A DNA stretch of 39,005 nt, from contig CAIYIS010000043.1 in the NCBI GenBank assembly GCA_903926385.1, positions 1-39,005 on the forward strand, given 5' to 3'. Source of the DNA: an uncultured Bacteroidota bacterium. GTDB lineage: Bacteria; Bacteroidota; Bacteroidia; 2-12-FULL-35-15. The notes beneath the pieces are model-generated. The model made no database searches. It saw only the letters and a program-made list of their open reading frames with translations, and was not told the DNA's origin. Position 1 is the stretch's first letter. Every line of letters starts with the position of its first letter. The translations under genes and the position numbers were made by a program. Shown here piece after piece: positions 14,057 to 39,005 of the stretch.

Positions 14057-14245
14057 CTATTTCCTTTTCAATATTACCTATTTCCTTTTCAATATTACCT
14101 ATTCCCTTTTCAATATTACCTATTTCCTTTTCAATATTACCTATTCCCTTTTCAATATTACCTATTTCCTTTCCAATATTACCTATTTCCTTTTCAACAT
14201 TTCCTATTTCCTTTCCATCATTTCCTATTTCCTTTTCAATTTTTG
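14057..14245. repeat. 21-bp tandem repeat, 9 copies
   Basis: Nine contiguous units based on CTATTTCCTTTTCAATATTAC. Units 3 and 5 share the variant CTATTCCC and units 2 and 4 are identical, so a 42-bp pair was itself duplicated; units 7-9 are diverged and a tenth is barely recognisable. The region is intergenic. One plus-strand frame and one minus-strand frame are free of stops (heptads LFPFQYY and EKEIGNI), but neither has a convincing start. Confidence 0.95.
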
Positions 14246-14324
14246 CTATTTTATTTCACTAATGCCAATTGCCAGTTTAGAAATTTCTCACTGCATTCTG
14301 AATTACAATTTATGGTTTTTATGT

Positions 14325-14475: not shown

Positions 14476-16284
14476 CTAGCGCCCCAATTTTAATTCCTTT
14501 TCTATCGAATCAATACGTTTTTCAAGCTTACCTTTTTCCTTAGTCAATTGCGAAACCTGTTTTCTCAATTGTTCCACTTCCTCAGCCTTCTCTTTCAGTT
14601 CAGCAGTTCTCTTTGCCAAAGCCTGAACAGCTATCATATTAATACCATCTATATCCAAACTGGTAATGGTAGTATCACTCTCTCCAAAATGTAACGCCTC
14701 ATATAAATCCTGAGCCATTGGGCCAATATGGCGTATGTTTGATGATTGAGTTTTATAATTCCAGCTTGTAATTTCCAAACTCGATATTTTATTTAAAATC
14801 ATTTCTCCATCCACATTCCTGAAATGCTCCTTTTTATTTCTATCCGATGTTCCCACCCACGAACCTGCACCTGGAGGAAGAGAAACACTGTTCAGTGCAC
14901 TTGCACTAGCAGTTGAATAAAATATCGTCCCTCCCGAAGCCTTTACCCAAAACTGATTATTTGCCGTATTTCTCGAAATAGGATAATTTATTGTATCCGT
15001 TGCATGCCCATAGTCAGTATTATCAGCCCATATAAAACTACCTGTCTTTCCTCCTGATGTGGTTTGTGTTCCTAGTGCTGTAGAAAATGCTCCATCAGCA
15101 ATAGTATAATAGCCCAAACCAGTCGAATAGTCCCCCAAAGCATCTACGTGATAGCCTATTGCAGACGATGCAATACCACTCGACAAGTTTCCTCTGCCAA
15201 TAGATATTGAATAAGCACCTGTTGATGTTGATTGGTTTCCCAAAGCCACTGAAAATTTACCACCTGCATTACAAACTCTTCCCATTGAAACTCCACAAGT
15301 ATCTCCTGCCTGGCATTGCTGCCCCATCGACACACTGCCATACCCAATAGCACTGCAACTGTATCCTGTAGCGAAAGAATAATTACCAACATTAGCATCG
15401 TTCCAAGAAGGATTTACACAAAAGCCGGCTCGAAAAGCAGCTTTCTTTGGATACCATTCCATAAGGCTTCCTAAAGCCGGATTAATAACTGTTCCACTAC
15501 CAAAAGTTCCCTGTGAAATAAAACCATCATTACCTACAATGTGTACCGAGGCTAAAGGAGTGGTTATTCCCATTCCTATTTTGCCTGCACTAGTAATCCG
15601 CATTCTTTCCGCATTATTTGTTTTTAAAACTAAATCCATCGCATTATTAGAACCTATATAGTCTGATGATGATGATGTATTTCCTGTAATATGCCAATCG
15701 TTTGTAGCTTGGTTGGTAGCAAATACTGCGGTATCAGAATTATTGTCGTTAGCCGGAACCCAATTAACACCATTCCATTTTAATGTCTTTCCTGTCAAAG
15801 TTCCGGTTGTATCTGCATCTGTCAAATCATTCAATGAAACCGGATTATTTGTACTTCCCGATTTTTGCGCATACAAAGCATACGGCACTGAAAGCAATTG
15901 CGAATTATCCATCAATGTGTAAGAACTACCACCGGTGGCATCCATTTCTACTTTTAAATACTTTACCGTTGCTCCCCAGTTAATCAAATTAAATGCTGCC
16001 ACAGAACCAGCTCCTGTTGAAGTTCCTTGTCCTATGGTCAGATGAAATAGTCCAAATTGATTGGTAGTATCCAAATGCGTTTCCTGCCATTCTAGGGTTC
16101 CTGTAGAAGAACCCGAAAGTATCCCTATACGAATACTAATAGCAGTATTATTTATCGTATTACCCAATGCGTCTAATGCTATAGCCTGATAATTTATTCC
16201 CTGAGGAACATTTTGCGAATACCCTCCTGTAACAGTGAGAAAGAGTATTGCAATAATTAATATTCTTAAGTTTTTTAAATACAT
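14476..16284 (-). CDS. Secreted tail-fibre-like protein with S74 intramolecular chaperone domain
   Basis: 602 residues. Signal peptide about 1-23; N-terminal beta domain about 24-140 (NYQAIALDALG ... [11 protein letters not shown]); linker with LNDLTDADTTG; YadA-like head repeats about 300-410 (SFATGYS, SAIGYGS, SVALGNQ); then a peptidase S74 domain from about 478 (GTSDRNKKEHF, RHIGPMAQDLYEAL) and a C-terminal coiled coil 560-602. In phage endosialidases this domain drives trimerisation and cleaves itself before the Ser of the S-D-R motif, here Ser480. No T9SS sorting domain. It starts 3 bases after its paralogue's stop in one operon. Confidence 0.85.
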   Translation of the reverse strand: MYLKNLRILIIAILFLTVTGGYSQNVPQGINYQAIALDALGNTINNTAISIRIGILSGSSTGTLEWQETHLDTTNQFGLFHLTIGQGTSTGAGSVAAFNLINWGATVKYLKVEMDATGGSSYTLMDNSQLLSVPYALYAQKSGSTNNPVSLNDLTDADTTGTLTGKTLKWNGVNWVPANDNNSDTAVFATNQATNDWHITGNTSSSSDYIGSNNAMDLVLKTNNAERMRITSAGKIGMGITTPLASVHIVGNDGFISQGTFGSGTVINPALGSLMEWYPKKAAFRAGFCVNPSWNDANVGNYSFATGYSCSAIGYGSVSMGQQCQAGDTCGVSMGRVCNAGGKFSVALGNQSTSTGAYSISIGRGNLSSGIASSAIGYHVDALGDYSTGLGYYTIADGAFSTALGTQTTSGGKTGSFIWADNTDYGHATDTINYPISRNTANNQFWVKASGGTIFYSTASASALNSVSLPPGAGSWVGTSDRNKKEHFRNVDGEMILNKISSLEITSWNYKTQSSNIRHIGPMAQDLYEALHFGESDTTITSLDIDGINMIAVQALAKRTAELKEKAEEVEQLRKQVSQLTKEKGKLEKRIDSIEKELKLGR

Positions 16285-16287
16285 GTT

Positions 16288-18063
16288 TTATCTGTTATTT
16301 AAAGTTTTTTCTATTCTGTCAAGTCTGCTTTCGAGGGCATCAAAATTTGCGTCTGTTTTTAATTCCTCTTTTATAGTTTCAATTTGGTTTATTTTTTCTG
16401 CCAATGCTCTTGTGGTTTGTTCAAGTGCTTTTATTCCTGCCATACACACACCGTCCATATCCACTGTTCCGATGGTGTAATTATTTTCACCGAAATTAAA
16501 TGCAGTATAAAAATCTTGAGCCATAGGGCCAATATGATGTATTCTTCTGCTTTGAGCTAAATAGTTCCATTTTGTAATTTTTAACTCACAAATTTTATCA
16601 AGTATTTCCTGAGTATTGACTACTGTAAAATTAGCTTTCTTTCTCCTGTCTGAAACGCTCGACCAGCTACCTGCTCCCGGAAATAATTGCACCCCTGTCT
16701 GAAGTGCTGTATCAGAATAAAACACAACACCACCAGATGCTCTTACCATAAATTGATTAATAGCAGTATTATAAAGCACGCCACCCGCAGCATCAGCAAA
16801 AATAAAACAGCCCTTTAGTGTTGCACTTGATGCTTTTGTTCCAAAAGCGATAGATACAAAACCATCAGCGGTGTTGTCCTTTCCGAATGCAGCAGACGAA
16901 CTGCCTGTCCGGGTTCTATTTTGATAACCTATAGAAATTCCATCTTCTGACCTGTTATGATAACCAATTGCTACACCTCGCGTAATATTTACATAATTAC
17001 TGTCACCTATCGCTACTAGGCCTCCATAAGCAATAGCTCCGGAATCGATAGAAGTATAATTATTTCTACCAATGCTAATACAGTTCAATCCTTTTGCCTT
17101 ATTGTTTATACCCATCGACACACTGCATCTGCCCGATGCCTCGCAGTTTAACCCTTCGGCAAACGAATGTTTCCCAATTTTCGAATTTCCCCAAACACTT
17201 GTGTTTGTTACTTGTCCTAACCTAAGTGCAGCATTGTGTGGATACCACATCATTCTTGTACCTGCACTCGAATCGCAAAGAGCTCCCGACAAGGTATCTC
17301 CCCTCACTTGAAATCCATCATTACCCACAAATTGTACCTGCGCTATAGGCGATGAAGTACCCACTGCCCATTGCCCATTTGCCGTAATGCGCATGCGTTC
17401 CGTATTATTTGATTTAAAGGTTAGGTCCTCCGCATTGTTTGTTCCCAAATAATTTGAACCGGTTACGGTATCTCCAGCAGGCGACCATCCTGGTGAAAGT
17501 AAATTTAATGCATACAATACAGTATCATGATGCTTGTCTGTTGCCGGCATCCAGTTGGTGCCGTTCCATTTTAATATTTTCCCTATGGCTATTCCTGCTG
17601 TGTCGGCATCTATAAGGTCATTAATACTTAACCCGGTTATTTGATTGGATTGATTTGCATAAAACGCATAAGGTACTGACATTAGTTGAGCATTGCCCAT
17701 TACCACATATCCTGAACCATAATCAATGGCTATGGCCAGAAAGTAATTATTGTTTTGCCATGAAATAAGATTAAATGCCGACAGTGAACCCACCCCTGTA
17801 GAAACACCTATACCTATTTTACAAACATATAATCCGTTTGCATCTGTGGTAACGGCAAAGGTTTCTTCCCAAACCAATGTACCGGAGCCACTGCCGGAAT
17901 AAATGCCGGCTTTTACAGTAATGTTCTGATTAATGATAGCTGCCCCGAGTGAATTTCGAGCAATACCCTGATAATTGAAAATATCGGGTACTCCCTGAGC
18001 AAACATAGTGTTGCCGACTATCAAAAAGAGAAAAAAGTAAAGGGTGTATACAAGTTTTTTCAT
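16288..18063 (-). CDS. Secreted tail-fibre-like protein with S74 intramolecular chaperone domain, paralogue
   Basis: 591 residues, the same architecture as the gene 3 bases downstream: signal peptide (about 1-22), N-terminal domain (FNYQGIARNSLG ... LMSVPYAFYA, about 28-136), linker SINDLIDADTAG, head repeats with a spacing near 14 residues (about 295-410), S74 domain with Ser471 in VSDRRKKANF and HHIGPMAQDFYTAF, then a short coiled coil. The shared linker phrase LKWNG-NW-PA-D shows a recent tandem duplication. It starts 7 bases after the stop of a short T9SS-sorted protein gene. Probably a trimeric surface fibre; its secretion route is not evident because it lacks a sorting domain. Confidence 0.85.
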   Translation of the reverse strand: MKKLVYTLYFFLFLIVGNTMFAQGVPDIFNYQGIARNSLGAAIINQNITVKAGIYSGSGSGTLVWEETFAVTTDANGLYVCKIGIGVSTGVGSLSAFNLISWQNNNYFLAIAIDYGSGYVVMGNAQLMSVPYAFYANQSNQITGLSINDLIDADTAGIAIGKILKWNGTNWMPATDKHHDTVLYALNLLSPGWSPAGDTVTGSNYLGTNNAEDLTFKSNNTERMRITANGQWAVGTSSPIAQVQFVGNDGFQVRGDTLSGALCDSSAGTRMMWYPHNAALRLGQVTNTSVWGNSKIGKHSFAEGLNCEASGRCSVSMGINNKAKGLNCISIGRNNYTSIDSGAIAYGGLVAIGDSNYVNITRGVAIGYHNRSEDGISIGYQNRTRTGSSSAAFGKDNTADGFVSIAFGTKASSATLKGCFIFADAAGGVLYNTAINQFMVRASGGVVFYSDTALQTGVQLFPGAGSWSSVSDRRKKANFTVVNTQEILDKICELKITKWNYLAQSRRIHHIGPMAQDFYTAFNFGENNYTIGTVDMDGVCMAGIKALEQTTRALAEKINQIETIKEELKTDANFDALESRLDRIEKTLNNR

Positions 18064-18070
18064 TCAATAA

Positions 18071-18577
18071 TCAAATCTTAACAAATCTAAATAAATGATT
18101 GTTTCCTTTCTCGTCTGTAATATTAATAAAGTATATACCATCCATAAACGAAGCTACAGGTAAAGTATATTGTGTGCTCTTTATTAGTTTCACATTTTCA
18201 TTCTTTACTAATAAACGACCTTGTGTATCATAAATCGAAACAGTAGCTGTCATGTTTTGCGAAGCACTCAAATAAACAAGGTTGCTCGATGGATTAGGAA
18301 ACATAGATATTTCCTGTGAAGGTTCATTTTGAGAAGGAACAATAACCGGAAAAGGAATAAATGGCTGAACGAAGCCTTGGGTAATTATATTATTGGGGGC
18401 GGTGTAAGTGTTTACCTGCAATTCTCCTATATTGGCATACAATCCACCGTTACTATTAAATACATACTTCCCTCCACTCGAAACCACACTGCGTATGATT
18501 GACTGAGCGTTTCCTTTAGCAGAATGCAAAGCAGACAAAGTTAGTACAATATAAAGAAGGCGTAACGGTTTAATCAT
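18071..18577 (-). CDS. Short secreted protein with T9SS type A sorting domain
   Basis: 168 residues from ATG 18577; an in-frame ATG at 18598 lies inside the promoter box and is rejected. Signal peptide about 1-24 (LLYIVLTLSALHSAKGNAQS). The middle carries YANIGELQ ... ITQGFVQPF. The end, from ISMFPNPSSNLVYL to FRFVKI, is a T9SS type A C-terminal domain that directs export across the outer membrane and surface attachment. It leads an operon with two S74-type fibre proteins. A protein of the same plan is encoded at 37425-37898 ahead of a collagen-like stalk gene. Confidence 0.88.
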   Translation of the reverse strand: MIKPLRLLYIVLTLSALHSAKGNAQSIIRSVVSSGGKYVFNSNGGLYANIGELQVNTYTAPNNIITQGFVQPFIPFPVIVPSQNEPSQEISMFPNPSSNLVYLSASQNMTATVSIYDTQGRLLVKNENVKLIKSTQYTLPVASFMDGIYFINITDEKGNNHLFRFVKI

Positions 18578-23269: not shown

Positions 23270-24198
23270 ATAAAAAAATACTTACTACTTTTTTTAGCTT
23301 GTTTATCCTGCTACATTCCATAGCTCAGGTGGTTTATATACCTGATGCCAATTTCAAAACATTATCGCTTAATAATACTGTAATTAATACCAATTCAGAT
23401 ACTTAAATTCAAGTGAGTGAGGCTATTGCTTACACCGGTGCCATTAATGTAGTCAGTCATTCAATTGGTGATTTAACAGGCATTTCAGCATTTGTAAATA
23501 TCACTTCACTTAATTGTTATAACAATCATATTACCTCGTTGAACTTAAGTGCTAATGCAGCCATTACCAGTTTAGGTTGTTCTGTCAATCAGCTTACCAG
23601 TTTAGATTTGAGTGCCAATATTGCATTAACTAATGTTACCTGTGTAAATGATCAATTGACAAGCTTGAATTTGGGCACTAATACCGTTTTGAGTGAATTA
23701 TACTGCAACGGCAATCAGCTTACTTCTCTGGATGTAAGTGCCGAAACCGCTCTTACTGTATTGTATTGTTTTACCAATCAGTTAACCAGCCTGAATTTAA
23801 GTTCAAACACCTTGCTTACCGATATGTATTGCATGGGTAATCCTTATTTATACTGTATTCGGGTGCCTGATGTGGCTGCTGCCACAGCTAATCAAAATTG
23901 GCTGAAAGATGCCGGTGCTATTTATTCGCTCAATTGCAATGCCGCGGGTATTGCCGATGTGTCGGCTGTTTCTTCGGTTTTGTTTCCAAATCCGGCAAGC
24001 GATGAACTTACTTTTACCGGTTTGCAAATAAATGCTGAATGGAGAATTTACAATACGCTTGGACAATTACTACTTTCCGGAAAAGTCAACAGTTCGGATG
24101 CTAAAACTGTGAATATTCAAGCACTGTCAAGTGGAGTTTATTCTGTTAAAATTACTCATAATAGCCAATTTCATACTTTTAAACTTGTGAAAAATTGA
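23270..24198 (+). pseudogene. Broken leucine-rich repeat surface protein with T9SS sorting domain
   Basis: One frame holds a signal peptide (LTTFFSLFILLHSIAQ, about 23281-23328), the family N terminus YIPDANFKTL, then TAA at 23404-23406, then IQVSEAIAY, repeats of about 21 residues of the form LTSLDLSxNxxLxxLxCxxNQ, and a type A sorting domain (LFPNPASDELTF ... FKLVKN). Relatives have Glu where the TAA stands, so GAA to TAA is the likely change. At the expected start the sequence reads ACAT-AAAAAAATACTT; one G after ACAT would restore ATG AAA AAA ATA CTT. Two lesions make it a pseudogene; an internal GTG at 23413 would yield an unsecreted 261-residue product. Confidence 0.8.
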
Positions 24199-36592: not shown

Positions 36593-36617
36593 ATGTAAAA
36601 CTGCCAGAGTTTTACAT
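36593..36617. repeat. Inverted repeat at the edge of the 21-bp array
   Basis: ATGTAAAACT (36593-36602) and AGTTTTACAT (36608-36617) form a 10-bp stem with loop GCCAG. The right arm overlaps the first unit of the tandem repeat. Confidence 0.7.
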
Positions 36618-36819
36618 CAAAGTATGGCACTTAGATATCAAAGCATGACACTTAGACATCAAAGTACGGCACTTAGTTATCAAAGTACGACACTTAGATA
36701 TGAAACTATGAAACTAAGACATCAAAGTTTTACACTTAGTTATCAAAGTACGGCACTTAGACATCAAAGTATGTCACTTAGATATAAAAGTGAGCTACTA
36801 AGACATGAAAATATGATTG
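36614..36819. repeat. 21-bp tandem repeat, nearly 10 copies
   Basis: Units based on ACATCAAAGTATGGCACTTAG, with first bases alternating among ACATC, ATATC and TTATC and more change in units 5 and 9. The reading frame LRYQSMA is open throughout; another plus frame has TAG in almost every unit. Different in sequence from the array at 14057-14245, but with the same 21-bp period. Confidence 0.93.
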
Positions 36820-37424: not shown

Positions 37425-37898
37425 ATGAAAAAATTAATAACACTTTTAATAATTTCAATTGTTACCATAAAAGCAACTGCACAGCAAACCACAGCCACTG
37501 CAGGTGGCGAAGCCACAGGCACAGGAGGCACACAAAGCTATACCATAGGTCAGGTGGTATATACTACCAACACCGGCTCCAACGGAAGCGCAAGGCAGGG
37601 TGTGCAACAAACGTATGATATTACTATAGGTATTACCGATAACAAAGAGGTGCAGCTTACCTGTGCGGTTTATCCAAACCCGACAGCAGAAGTGCTAAAC
37701 CTAAATGTAGGCAATACAAAATTAGACAACCTTGAATTTGAATTGTACGATATACAAGGCAAGTTATTACAAAAACAAAAAGTACAATCCATCACTACCA
37801 TTATTAATATGGAGCAATACGAGGATGCTAATTATCTATTAACCGTTACCGATAGTAACCGACTTATACAAAGCTTTAAAATAATTAAAAATAATTAA
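37425..37898 (+). CDS. Short secreted protein with T9SS type A sorting domain
   Basis: 157 residues. Signal peptide MKKLITLLIISIVTIKATAQ. The mature part starts TTATAGGEATGTGGTQSYTIG, then GQVVYTTNTGSNGSARQGVQQTYDI (in part), and ends in a type A sorting domain (AVYPNPTAEVLNLNV ... SFKIIKNN). The middle matches the plan of the protein at 18071-18577 (x-Y-x-I-G-[EQ] ... QG[FV]xQ). It is exported by the T9SS. The stalk gene follows after 18 bases, as in the other module. Confidence 0.88.
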   Translation: MKKLITLLIISIVTIKATAQQTTATAGGEATGTGGTQSYTIGQVVYTTNTGSNGSARQGVQQTYDITIGITDNKEVQLTCAVYPNPTAEVLNLNVGNTKLDNLEFELYDIQGKLLQKQKVQSITTIINMEQYEDANYLLTVTDSNRLIQSFKIIKNN

Positions 37899-37916
37899 TA
37901 ACTAACCCCAAACAAA

Positions 37917-39005
37917 ATGAAAAAACTAATTACCATTTTATCAGCAGTAATATTAACTGCAAGCGCATGGGCGCAAGTACCCAATTTGATGAGTTACCAA
38001 GCCGTAATACGCAATGGCGGAGGCGCATTGGTGGCAAACACAGCTATTGGTATGCGAGTAAGCATTTCCTCCGACTCTTCGTTTTCTGTTGGCAATATAG
38101 CTTTCCGCGAAATATATAACCCCAACCCGGTGAGCAATACCAATGGTTTGGTAACGGTTGCTATTGGTAGTGGTTTGCCTGCCATCGGTACATTTGCAGG
38201 TATCAATTGGGCAAACGTACCTTATTATATAAGAACAGAAACCGACCCTACAGGAGGCACCAACTATACTATTATTGGAACCAACCAATTATTGAGTGTG
38301 CCTTATGCTTTATATGCTGCTAATGGAACTCCGGGACCACAAGGACCACAAGGGTTGCAAGGACCGGCAGGTAACGATGGTGCTGTTGGAGCAACAGGAG
38401 CACAAGGGATTGCAGGAAATGATGGTGCTGTAGGAGCAACAGGAGCACAAGGACCACAAGGAATACCAGGAAACGATGGAGCAATAGGAGCTACAGGAGC
38501 ACAAGGACCACAAGGAATACCAGGAAATGATGGTGCTGTAGGAGCAACAGGAGCACAAGGGATTGCAGGAAATGATGGTGCCATAGGTGCAACAGGAGCG
38601 CAAGGGCCACAAGGAATACAAGGAAATGATGGTGTTACAGGTGCAACCGGAGCCCAAGGAATACAAGGAAATGATGGTGTTACAGGTGCAACCGGAGCCC
38701 AAGGAATACAAGGAAATGATGGTGTTACAGGCGCAACCGGACCACAAGGCCCAATTGGTTTAACGGGTAATACGGGTGCAACCGGACCACAAGGACCAAT
38801 AGGTTTAACGGGTAATACAGGCGCAATTGGACCGCAAGGCCCAATTGGATTAACGGGTAATACGGGTGCAACTGGACCACAAGGTGCTGTAGGCGCAACC
38901 GGACCACAAGGACCAATAGGTTTAACGGGTAATACAGGCGCAACTGGACCGCAAGGAACAATTGGATTAACAGGTAATACGGGTGCAACTGGACCACAAG
39001 GCCCA
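37917..39005 (+). CDS. Collagen-like secreted stalk protein, cut by the window end
   Basis: At least 363 residues; the frame is open to the last base, so the C terminus is missing. Signal peptide [21 protein letters not shown]-terminal domain about 21-135 ([13 protein letters not shown] ... [14 protein letters not shown]), shared with the two S74 fibre proteins at 14476-18063. From about 137 it is pure Gly-x-y, roughly 75 triplets, in units such as [18 protein letters not shown] (18 residues) and [15 protein letters not shown] (15 residues). Such stalks form triple helices in bacteria. It follows a short T9SS-sorted protein gene by 18 bases. Confidence 0.9.
38334..39005 (+). repeat. Collagen-type coding repeats
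   Basis: Near-identical 54-base units (about 38370-38730, GNDG-led) followed by 45-base units (about 38740-39005, GLTGNTG-led). Adjacent copies are almost identical at base level, so recent expansion or contraction is likely. The array continues beyond the window. Confidence 0.9.

Follow-up and report, generated by a model that had tools for sequence, protein, structure and literature searches.

In many Bacteroidota, large secreted fibre proteins that carry no T9SS sorting tail of their own are encoded next to a small adaptor protein that does; this pairing is genuine, and adaptor and fibre form a functional unit of wide distribution. Our main reading, to which we give a probability of roughly 70%, is a two-partner fibre system: a short domain of the adaptor, which we call D, would dock on the base of the fibre, a domain resembling the N-terminal domain of the Bdellovibrio MAT fibres (MAT-N), and the sorting tail of the adaptor would export the fibre, anchor it, or both. 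The pairing itself is observed directly in the genomes; the physical binding, the trimeric state of the fibre and the part played by export drive as against anchoring are what we infer from sequence.

The window analysed here is an entire contig, ending at position 39005, and belongs to a genome assembly of 4.27 Mb. It holds two cassettes. On the plus strand, the first adaptor gene (37425..37898) is an open reading frame of 157 residues with a putative signal peptide, D and a T9SS type A tail. The stretch aligned as D, the candidate for fibre docking, spans 37446..37640 with the end of the signal peptide included (alignment A4); the D profile matches at 37449-37634 (E = 4.2e-15), and this member falls in no family of Pfam or NCBIfam. 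The sorting tail (37668..37892) is recognised by TIGR04183 above its cut-off (E = 1.4-1.5e-11). A gap of 18 bases separates this gene from a collagen-like stalk gene (37917..39005, 363 residues, Collagen E = 7.1e-37) that is open at the contig end; its MAT-N-like N-domain lies at 37971..38324 (NF053851, E = 2.7e-7, 30.5 bits against a cut-off of 60), and its C-terminus is unreadable because the contig stops at 39005.

The same order recurs on the minus strand. The second adaptor (18071..18577), of 168 residues from its ATG or 175 from a TTG start, again consists of a putative signal peptide, D (profile match 18341-18526, E = 5.5e-21) and a type A tail (18077..18304, TIGR04183 E = 7.1-7.3e-12). 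Seven bases further lies a 591-residue stalk (16288..18063), and after another three bases a 602-residue stalk of the same cassette and plan (14476..16284). The first stalk has a signal peptide, a MAT-N-like domain (17650..18000), a YadA-head match and a C-terminal Peptidase_S74 domain, the chaperone of endosialidase (16498..16653, residues 471-522, PF13884 E = 2.5e-10); in the second, the MAT-N-like domain lies at 15862..16221 and Peptidase_S74 at 14692..14847 (residues 480-531, PF13884 E = 2.2e-11). The YadA-head match is weak in the 591-residue stalk (20.7 bits against a Pfam cut-off of 25) and over the cut-off in the 602-residue one (28.8 bits). Pfam's Por_Secre_tail exceeds its curated cut-offs in both adaptors (5.1e-11 in the first, 3.9e-13 in the second), and both adaptor N-termini are hydrophobic and end in AQ, from which the signal peptide was read. 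On the three stalks of the window, one of them cut by the contig end, neither Pfam nor NCBIfam matched a sorting domain. The first-pass annotation had described the plus-strand pair with its 18-base gap and the type A tail on the short protein, as well as the same order on the minus strand, with 7 bases and then two large secreted proteins; the reading frames bear out both descriptions, and the profiles place a type A tail on both short proteins.

Elsewhere in the window, positions 23413-24198 encode another T9SS-tailed protein, of 261 residues, without a D profile match, and tandem arrays lie at 14057-14251 and 36616-36816. Similar arrays occur at loci L025, L030, L031 and L367; their period is 21 or 42 bases, their units differ, and some stand upstream of cassettes and some elsewhere.

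D occupies about 45 residues between the signal peptide and the tail of the short protein, with the consensus P.V....G.........L.WT.GE....T.......LTQGF.QP (alignment A4). It matched no NCBIfam family, and Pfam gave a single marginal match (E = 0.0099) in 1 of 42 members. PDB sequence profiles returned no relative of either D or the fibre N-domain; matches to antibody structures (best E = 0.0073) were taken as chance. The profile built from alignment A4 errs in two directions: it derives from genes beside fibres, partly those of this genome, and therefore inflates the fraction of D genes assigned to fibres, and it misses divergent D domains, including those of the Chryseobacterium type.

Beyond the window, a stalk search of the genome, read in context, gave 12 fibre genes, and a search with NF053851 at E 0.001 returned the same 12 and nothing else. 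Nine of them, many more than chance would give, sit in cassettes with a D gene, which is upstream for seven (two of these share one D gene in the window) and downstream for two, where D forms part of a larger protein. The three that are unpaired within their contigs are a stalk with an S74 domain (contig C14), a stalk cut by a contig end (C5) and a remnant of 162 residues (C76). Against at least 150 sorting tails, this genome gave nine matches to the D profile, and eight of these lie inside fibre cassettes (genes from which the profile was partly built). The SprA translocon is encoded as well (TIGR04189, E = 0, over the cut-off). The ninth D, on contig C10, carries a type B tail. Behind it come a PorP/SprF gene and a gene for an OmpA-type, PorE-like protein scoring below the PorE cut-off; in front of it lies a collagen-like fibre that the contig start truncates. 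Both the end of the C5 stalk and the start of the C10 fibre are arrays of a near-identical 51-base unit, which suggests that assembly probably broke a single gene into these pieces (loci L024 and L367), whose contigs are not joined.

We then looked for the fibre N-domain on named contigs from elsewhere. The best 80 of 572 confirmed stretches, with titles that name Flavobacteriales, Chitinophagales, Cytophagales, Saprospiraceae, Bacteroidales, Sphingobacteriales and other groups, together with the loci of this genome and the window, gave 117 fibre reading frames by local profiles, those close to contig ends included. A same-strand neighbour with D, a tail or both stood beside 60 of the 117 (both, 44; tail only, 14; D only, 2). 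Eleven of the 14 tail-only neighbours are short proteins that by eye follow the same plan, and the other three are large and may be there by chance. No fibre frame among the 117 bears D or a sorting tail itself.

A survey by coordinates, limited to 44 genomes (one for each family having the fibre domain), returned 142 fibre and 92 D matches. Genes on one strand were counted as neighbours up to a limit set by frame length: for D starting upstream, 400 bases plus 3 for every residue of the D frame; for D starting downstream, 600 bases plus 3 for every residue of the fibre frame. On that count D adjoins 76 of the 142 fibre genes, where 0.18 would be expected by chance, and lies upstream of 56 and downstream of 20; conversely, 74 of the 92 D genes have a fibre neighbour. 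At least one pair is present in 34 of the 41 genomes holding both families, and there were no D-fibre neighbours on opposite strands within 2.5 kb. In a phylum-wide set, less the genomes of the first set, at least 48 of 58 D genes adjoin a listed fibre gene, again with no opposite-strand neighbours within 2.5 kb. The enrichment of adjacency that a survey of the two families was proposed to look for is thus present in both sets. The order varies: among 134 pairs (from loci partly chosen as pairs; median gap 14 bases, partner tail matched in 130) the adaptor precedes the fibre in 115 and follows it in 19. In addition, 66 of the 142 fibre genes in the survey have no adjacent D match. The fibre-first pairs rule out a fixed adaptor-first operon.

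Co-occurrence leads to the same association by another path. Among 149 genomes of the class, 84 hold both D and the fibre domain, five the fibre domain only, none D only and 60 neither. T9SS tails occur in 145 of the 149, yet D was found in none of the 56 class genomes that have such tails and lack the fibre domain: D follows the fibre and not the T9SS, and can be ruled out as a general T9SS feature. Fisher's test among the 145 genomes gives p = 9e-35, a figure overstated because it treats genomes as independent; the one-per-family set of 44 genomes is less open to that objection.

The 296 genomes of the phylum set include 76 with the fibre domain (some by weak matches), 46 with D and 227 with SprA. 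All 76 fibre-domain genomes have SprA and none of the 69 SprA-less genomes has the fibre domain, although 16 of the 20 SprA-less genomes listed belong to one family, so the link to SprA is weaker than its count suggests. The 227 SprA genomes divide into 45 with both fibre domain and D, 31 with the fibre domain only, one with D only and 150 with neither. In the genome with D alone, D lies right before a gene whose C-terminus by eye resembles that of an S74 fibre.

Across both sets, 35 genomes have a fibre domain without a D match. We read 18 upstream regions from 17 of these, among them every one of the 14 genomes of the phylum set whose fibre match is strong. In 14 of the 18, a short protein stands directly upstream (gaps 1-59) with a weak D match (E = 6e-7 to 0.004) and a tail match; the regions scored as negative therefore mostly hold divergent adaptors, and the D profile undercounts. 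Of the other four, two are from G059, one is from G147 and one is cut by a contig end (G096). An additional region, from a genome with D elsewhere (G337), had no upstream adaptor.

All 66 sampled fibre N-domains, our own included, matched Bdello_MAT_N (NF053851) at E <= 1e-3 (best 3.7e-14), and no other NCBIfam model matched them; Pfam's Ig-like family Big_1 matched 12 of the 66. The curated cut-off of NF053851, 60 bits, was not reached by the domains of this genome (at most 37.7) or by the full window stalk (41.1); on these scores we regard the domain as distantly related to the MAT N-domain and as no member by the curated rule. The layout is that of MAT: the N-domain comes right after the signal peptide, then the fibre, then a variable tip, S74 or other. 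The first-pass annotation had noted that the stalk lacked a visible sorting domain. That holds well beyond the window, where the plus-strand stalk is cut: NCBIfam at E 0.01 found a sorting tail in 0 of 91 complete stalks, scanned over the last 200 residues of each (fewer in short stalks). The single tail match among 212 fibre frames at E <= 0.05, on the stalk of L292, was set aside as chance, since that frame is cut and has no tail by eye.

Several tip families are trimeric domains, and Peptidase_S74 is the self-cleaving chaperone domain of phage tail spikes. Among the 91 tips, with 25 of 28 Pfam families listed, we counted Peptidase_S74 in 19, Collagen in 8, Lcl_C in 6, C1q and BclA_C in 4 each, Fib_succ_major and H-type lectin in 2 each, Collar in 1, and scattered others. 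Trimeric tip domains fit a trimeric fibre with exchangeable tips. They also lend something to the notion that the adaptor is a passing assembly factor, a trimerisation chaperone or cap that stays outside the mature fibre, in that the fibres often end in self-chaperoning or trimeric domains; a tail that fixes its bearer at the surface would be odd on a periplasmic chaperone, and we consider such a role highly improbable. Signatures of other export routes did not appear: the YadA anchor barrel of type Vc was absent from the window stalks in Pfam and from the 25 of 28 listed tip families of the 91 C-termini, and the three window stalks gave no Pfam match to the haemagglutinin-type TPS domain of type Vb and no listed NCBIfam or Pfam match to the TANFOR domain.

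Fibre N-domains are also encoded on three IMG/VR viral contigs (L364, L365 and L366), whose neighbouring genes look phage-like by eye. A gene with D and tail lies just upstream of the fibre in L365 and L366, and a tail-only gene just downstream in L364, so the adaptor/fibre cassette may travel on prophages too. A phage origin of the N-domain was rejected: relatives turned up in 3 of 19 IMG/VR candidate stretches, and at the sensitivity of that scan the domain appears to be mainly a bacterial module.

Joint movement and duplication, rather than joint function, could in principle keep the two genes together. Two things count for this: pairs diverge as units, and of the three viral loci two have a D-and-tail gene and one a tail-only gene beside the fibre. 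Order and linkage vary, however, with the adaptor downstream in 19 of 134 pairs and some adaptors standing alone, and co-occurrence in the class set still reaches 84 of 89 genomes, more than linkage alone would enforce. We therefore think mobility very unlikely as the explanation of the pairing.

The unpaired D genes add a further line of evidence. We read in context all eight unpaired D genes of the 44-genome set whose frames measure 240-265 residues. In seven of them, a PorP/SprF-like gene and then a PorE-like gene come after D (once with an intervening gene; partly by eye); four are preceded by a gene that by eye is fibre-like, and two of these cassettes hold a MAT-N-like gene. Profiles identified a type B tail and SprF at three loci and OmpA/PorE-like partners at the two scanned for them. 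The three type B adaptors score 54-62 bits with the type B model and weakly, 22-25 bits against a cut-off of 23, with the type A model. D thus stays the same where tail and anchor differ, and nothing else argues as well for D as the part that meets the fibre. A corresponding gene grouping is described in F. johnsoniae, where five operons are reported, each encoding a type B substrate together with its SprF-like shuttle protein and a homologue of PorE (PMC12618676). The cargo in those operons, as that report presents it, is itself the anchored protein (PMC12618676); in our cassettes a small adaptor takes the place of the cargo, next to a fibre that lacks a tail.

At L369 and L371, the MAT-N fibre and the type B adaptor have another gene between them, which is fibre-like too but of a second kind, its N-terminus being different. 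Three loci, L024, L373 and L374, have much the same three genes upstream of the fibre or of the type B adaptor. By eye one is YfiR-like, one TPR-like and one a sensor whose end resembles a phosphatase, and the trio may regulate the fibre or the type B adaptor.

We also read 13 other regions that hold unpaired D genes. In three genomes a D-tail gene stands alone, each time beside a gene that by eye resembles an iron-containing alcohol dehydrogenase. One of these genomes (G044) has 10 fibre genes and one D match, which suggests that an adaptor may also act for fibres encoded at a distance from it; stalks outnumber adaptors in some genomes. The other unpaired D genes stand by themselves, have further genes between them and a fibre, or are truncated.

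We wondered whether contact between D and the N-domain could be seen in structure models, as the first-pass annotation had proposed to check. Two AlphaFold runs were made, each on a read-through chain of adaptor and N-domain: one for the window pair, with 18 in-frame paired rows among 70, and one for the pair at L095, with 42 of the 46 available in-frame paired rows among 139. Neither docked D on the N-domain. The pTM values were 0.50 and 0.48; in blocks of ten residues, the N-domain (about 82-98) and the tail (about 77-98) were mostly confident, and D was modelled at low confidence in both runs (about 42-74), so we make no claim about contact from these models. Foldseek matched the first model mostly to Ig/FnIII-like chains, at a query TM of about 0.2. 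Divergence among paralogues was correlated between N-domain and D (r = 0.79 over 70 comparisons in 10 genomes, reached in 0 of 2000 shuffles). The correlation of the N-domain with the tail (r = 0.82) is no weaker, so co-divergence speaks for co-inheritance as a unit and is ruled out as evidence of contact.

These two results count for a reading in which adaptor and fibre are co-expressed without touching, the adaptor being an independent surface protein that shares a surface layer or one regulator with the fibre. Such a reading accounts poorly for three observations: D, rather than tails in general, tracks the fibre domain (in our genome, 9 D matches against 150 or more tails); D is missing from the 56 tail-bearing class genomes without the fibre; and it is retained across a change of tail type. 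We consider it unlikely.

The two-partner reading, which the first-pass annotation had put forward, gains support from the enriched adjacency and the tail-less stalks, so that neither of the two outcomes named there as refuting it has appeared, with binding of the stalk and its escort or holding by the short protein as the steps it would entail. We propose the following sequence. The fibre protein would enter the periplasm by its own signal peptide and probably form a trimer with a variable tip; we found no outer-membrane export signal on it. The small partner would be T9SS cargo, and its D would dock on the fibre at the base, where the conserved MAT-N lies. The sorting tail would carry the adaptor through the T9SS translocon and fix it outside. 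Type A tails are anchored by the PorV route; for type B tails this task would fall to the PorP/SprF and PorE-like proteins encoded next to them. In this way the adaptor would carry the fibre out, hold it at the surface, or do both.

A more specific version, which we hold tentatively and at somewhat less than even odds, is that D-tail proteins act as carriers: while still in the periplasm they would take hold of tail-less fibres by a docking domain dedicated to that purpose, pull them through SprA and pin them outside by the anchor that the tail specifies; to judge by homology, the MAT-N base would then be an old fibre plug, fitted to different sockets in Bacteroidota and in Bdellovibrio. The adaptor might instead serve as an anchor alone, a T9SS-exported base plate that captures outside a fibre which has crossed the outer membrane by other means. 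In favour of that possibility, Bdellovibrio MAT fibres reach the surface, and their N-domain is expected to bind a surface element (PMC10769870). Bdellovibrio is not known to have a T9SS. The position of type B adaptors next to SprF and PorE-like anchors also counts for it. The presence of SprA in 76 of 76 fibre-domain genomes of the phylum set weighs on the other side, and we regard anchoring without export as a possibility to be taken seriously, if a minority one.

T9SS cargo is recognised by its own C-terminal tail, so secreted proteins without a tail are not counted as T9SS exports. Several known systems share parts of the arrangement. AtaA-TpgA combines a trimeric autotransporter with a peptidoglycan-bound partner, and so resembles our pair, as we read it, in having a trimeric fibre and a dedicated anchoring partner; AtaA differs in being a type Vc autotransporter with its own barrel and unrelated machinery. 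In type Vb two-partner secretion the genes for the secreted protein and its export partner adjoin, as here, but that partner is an outer-membrane transporter, whereas ours is T9SS cargo. The TANFOR polymorphic toxins of Bacteroidetes have a signal peptide, neighbourhoods rich in tailed T9SS substrates and a proposed T9SS export; they are toxins, not fibres, and their description as far as consulted defines no adaptor domain (PMC7073777). MAT of Bdellovibrio bacteriovorus (NF053851) has in common with our fibres a signal peptide, a related N-domain, a long fibre and exchangeable tips including S74 (PMC10769870). The differences are that the scores obtained here lie below the curated cut-off and that the parts of the MAT study consulted contain no T9SS adaptor; that study leaves the partner of the N-domain open (PMC10769870). 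We accordingly class the adaptor as T9SS cargo of type A or B, and the fibre as a relative of MAT and no curated member. The first-pass annotation knew of no description of the pairing, and we likewise found none among the titles and abstract openings that searches of open-access PubMed Central listed, nor did we find an experiment on it.

A dedicated adaptor, if the main reading is true, would add a further class to the exported proteins of Bacteroidota, and their genomes would encode more surface fibres, with tips as varied as S74, collagen, C1q-like and lectin domains. The pairing may explain how fibres without an export tag arrive at the surface. D is a testable candidate for the binder of MAT-type N-domains, and a docking domain of such small size might be put to use in the display of proteins on cells of Bacteroidota.
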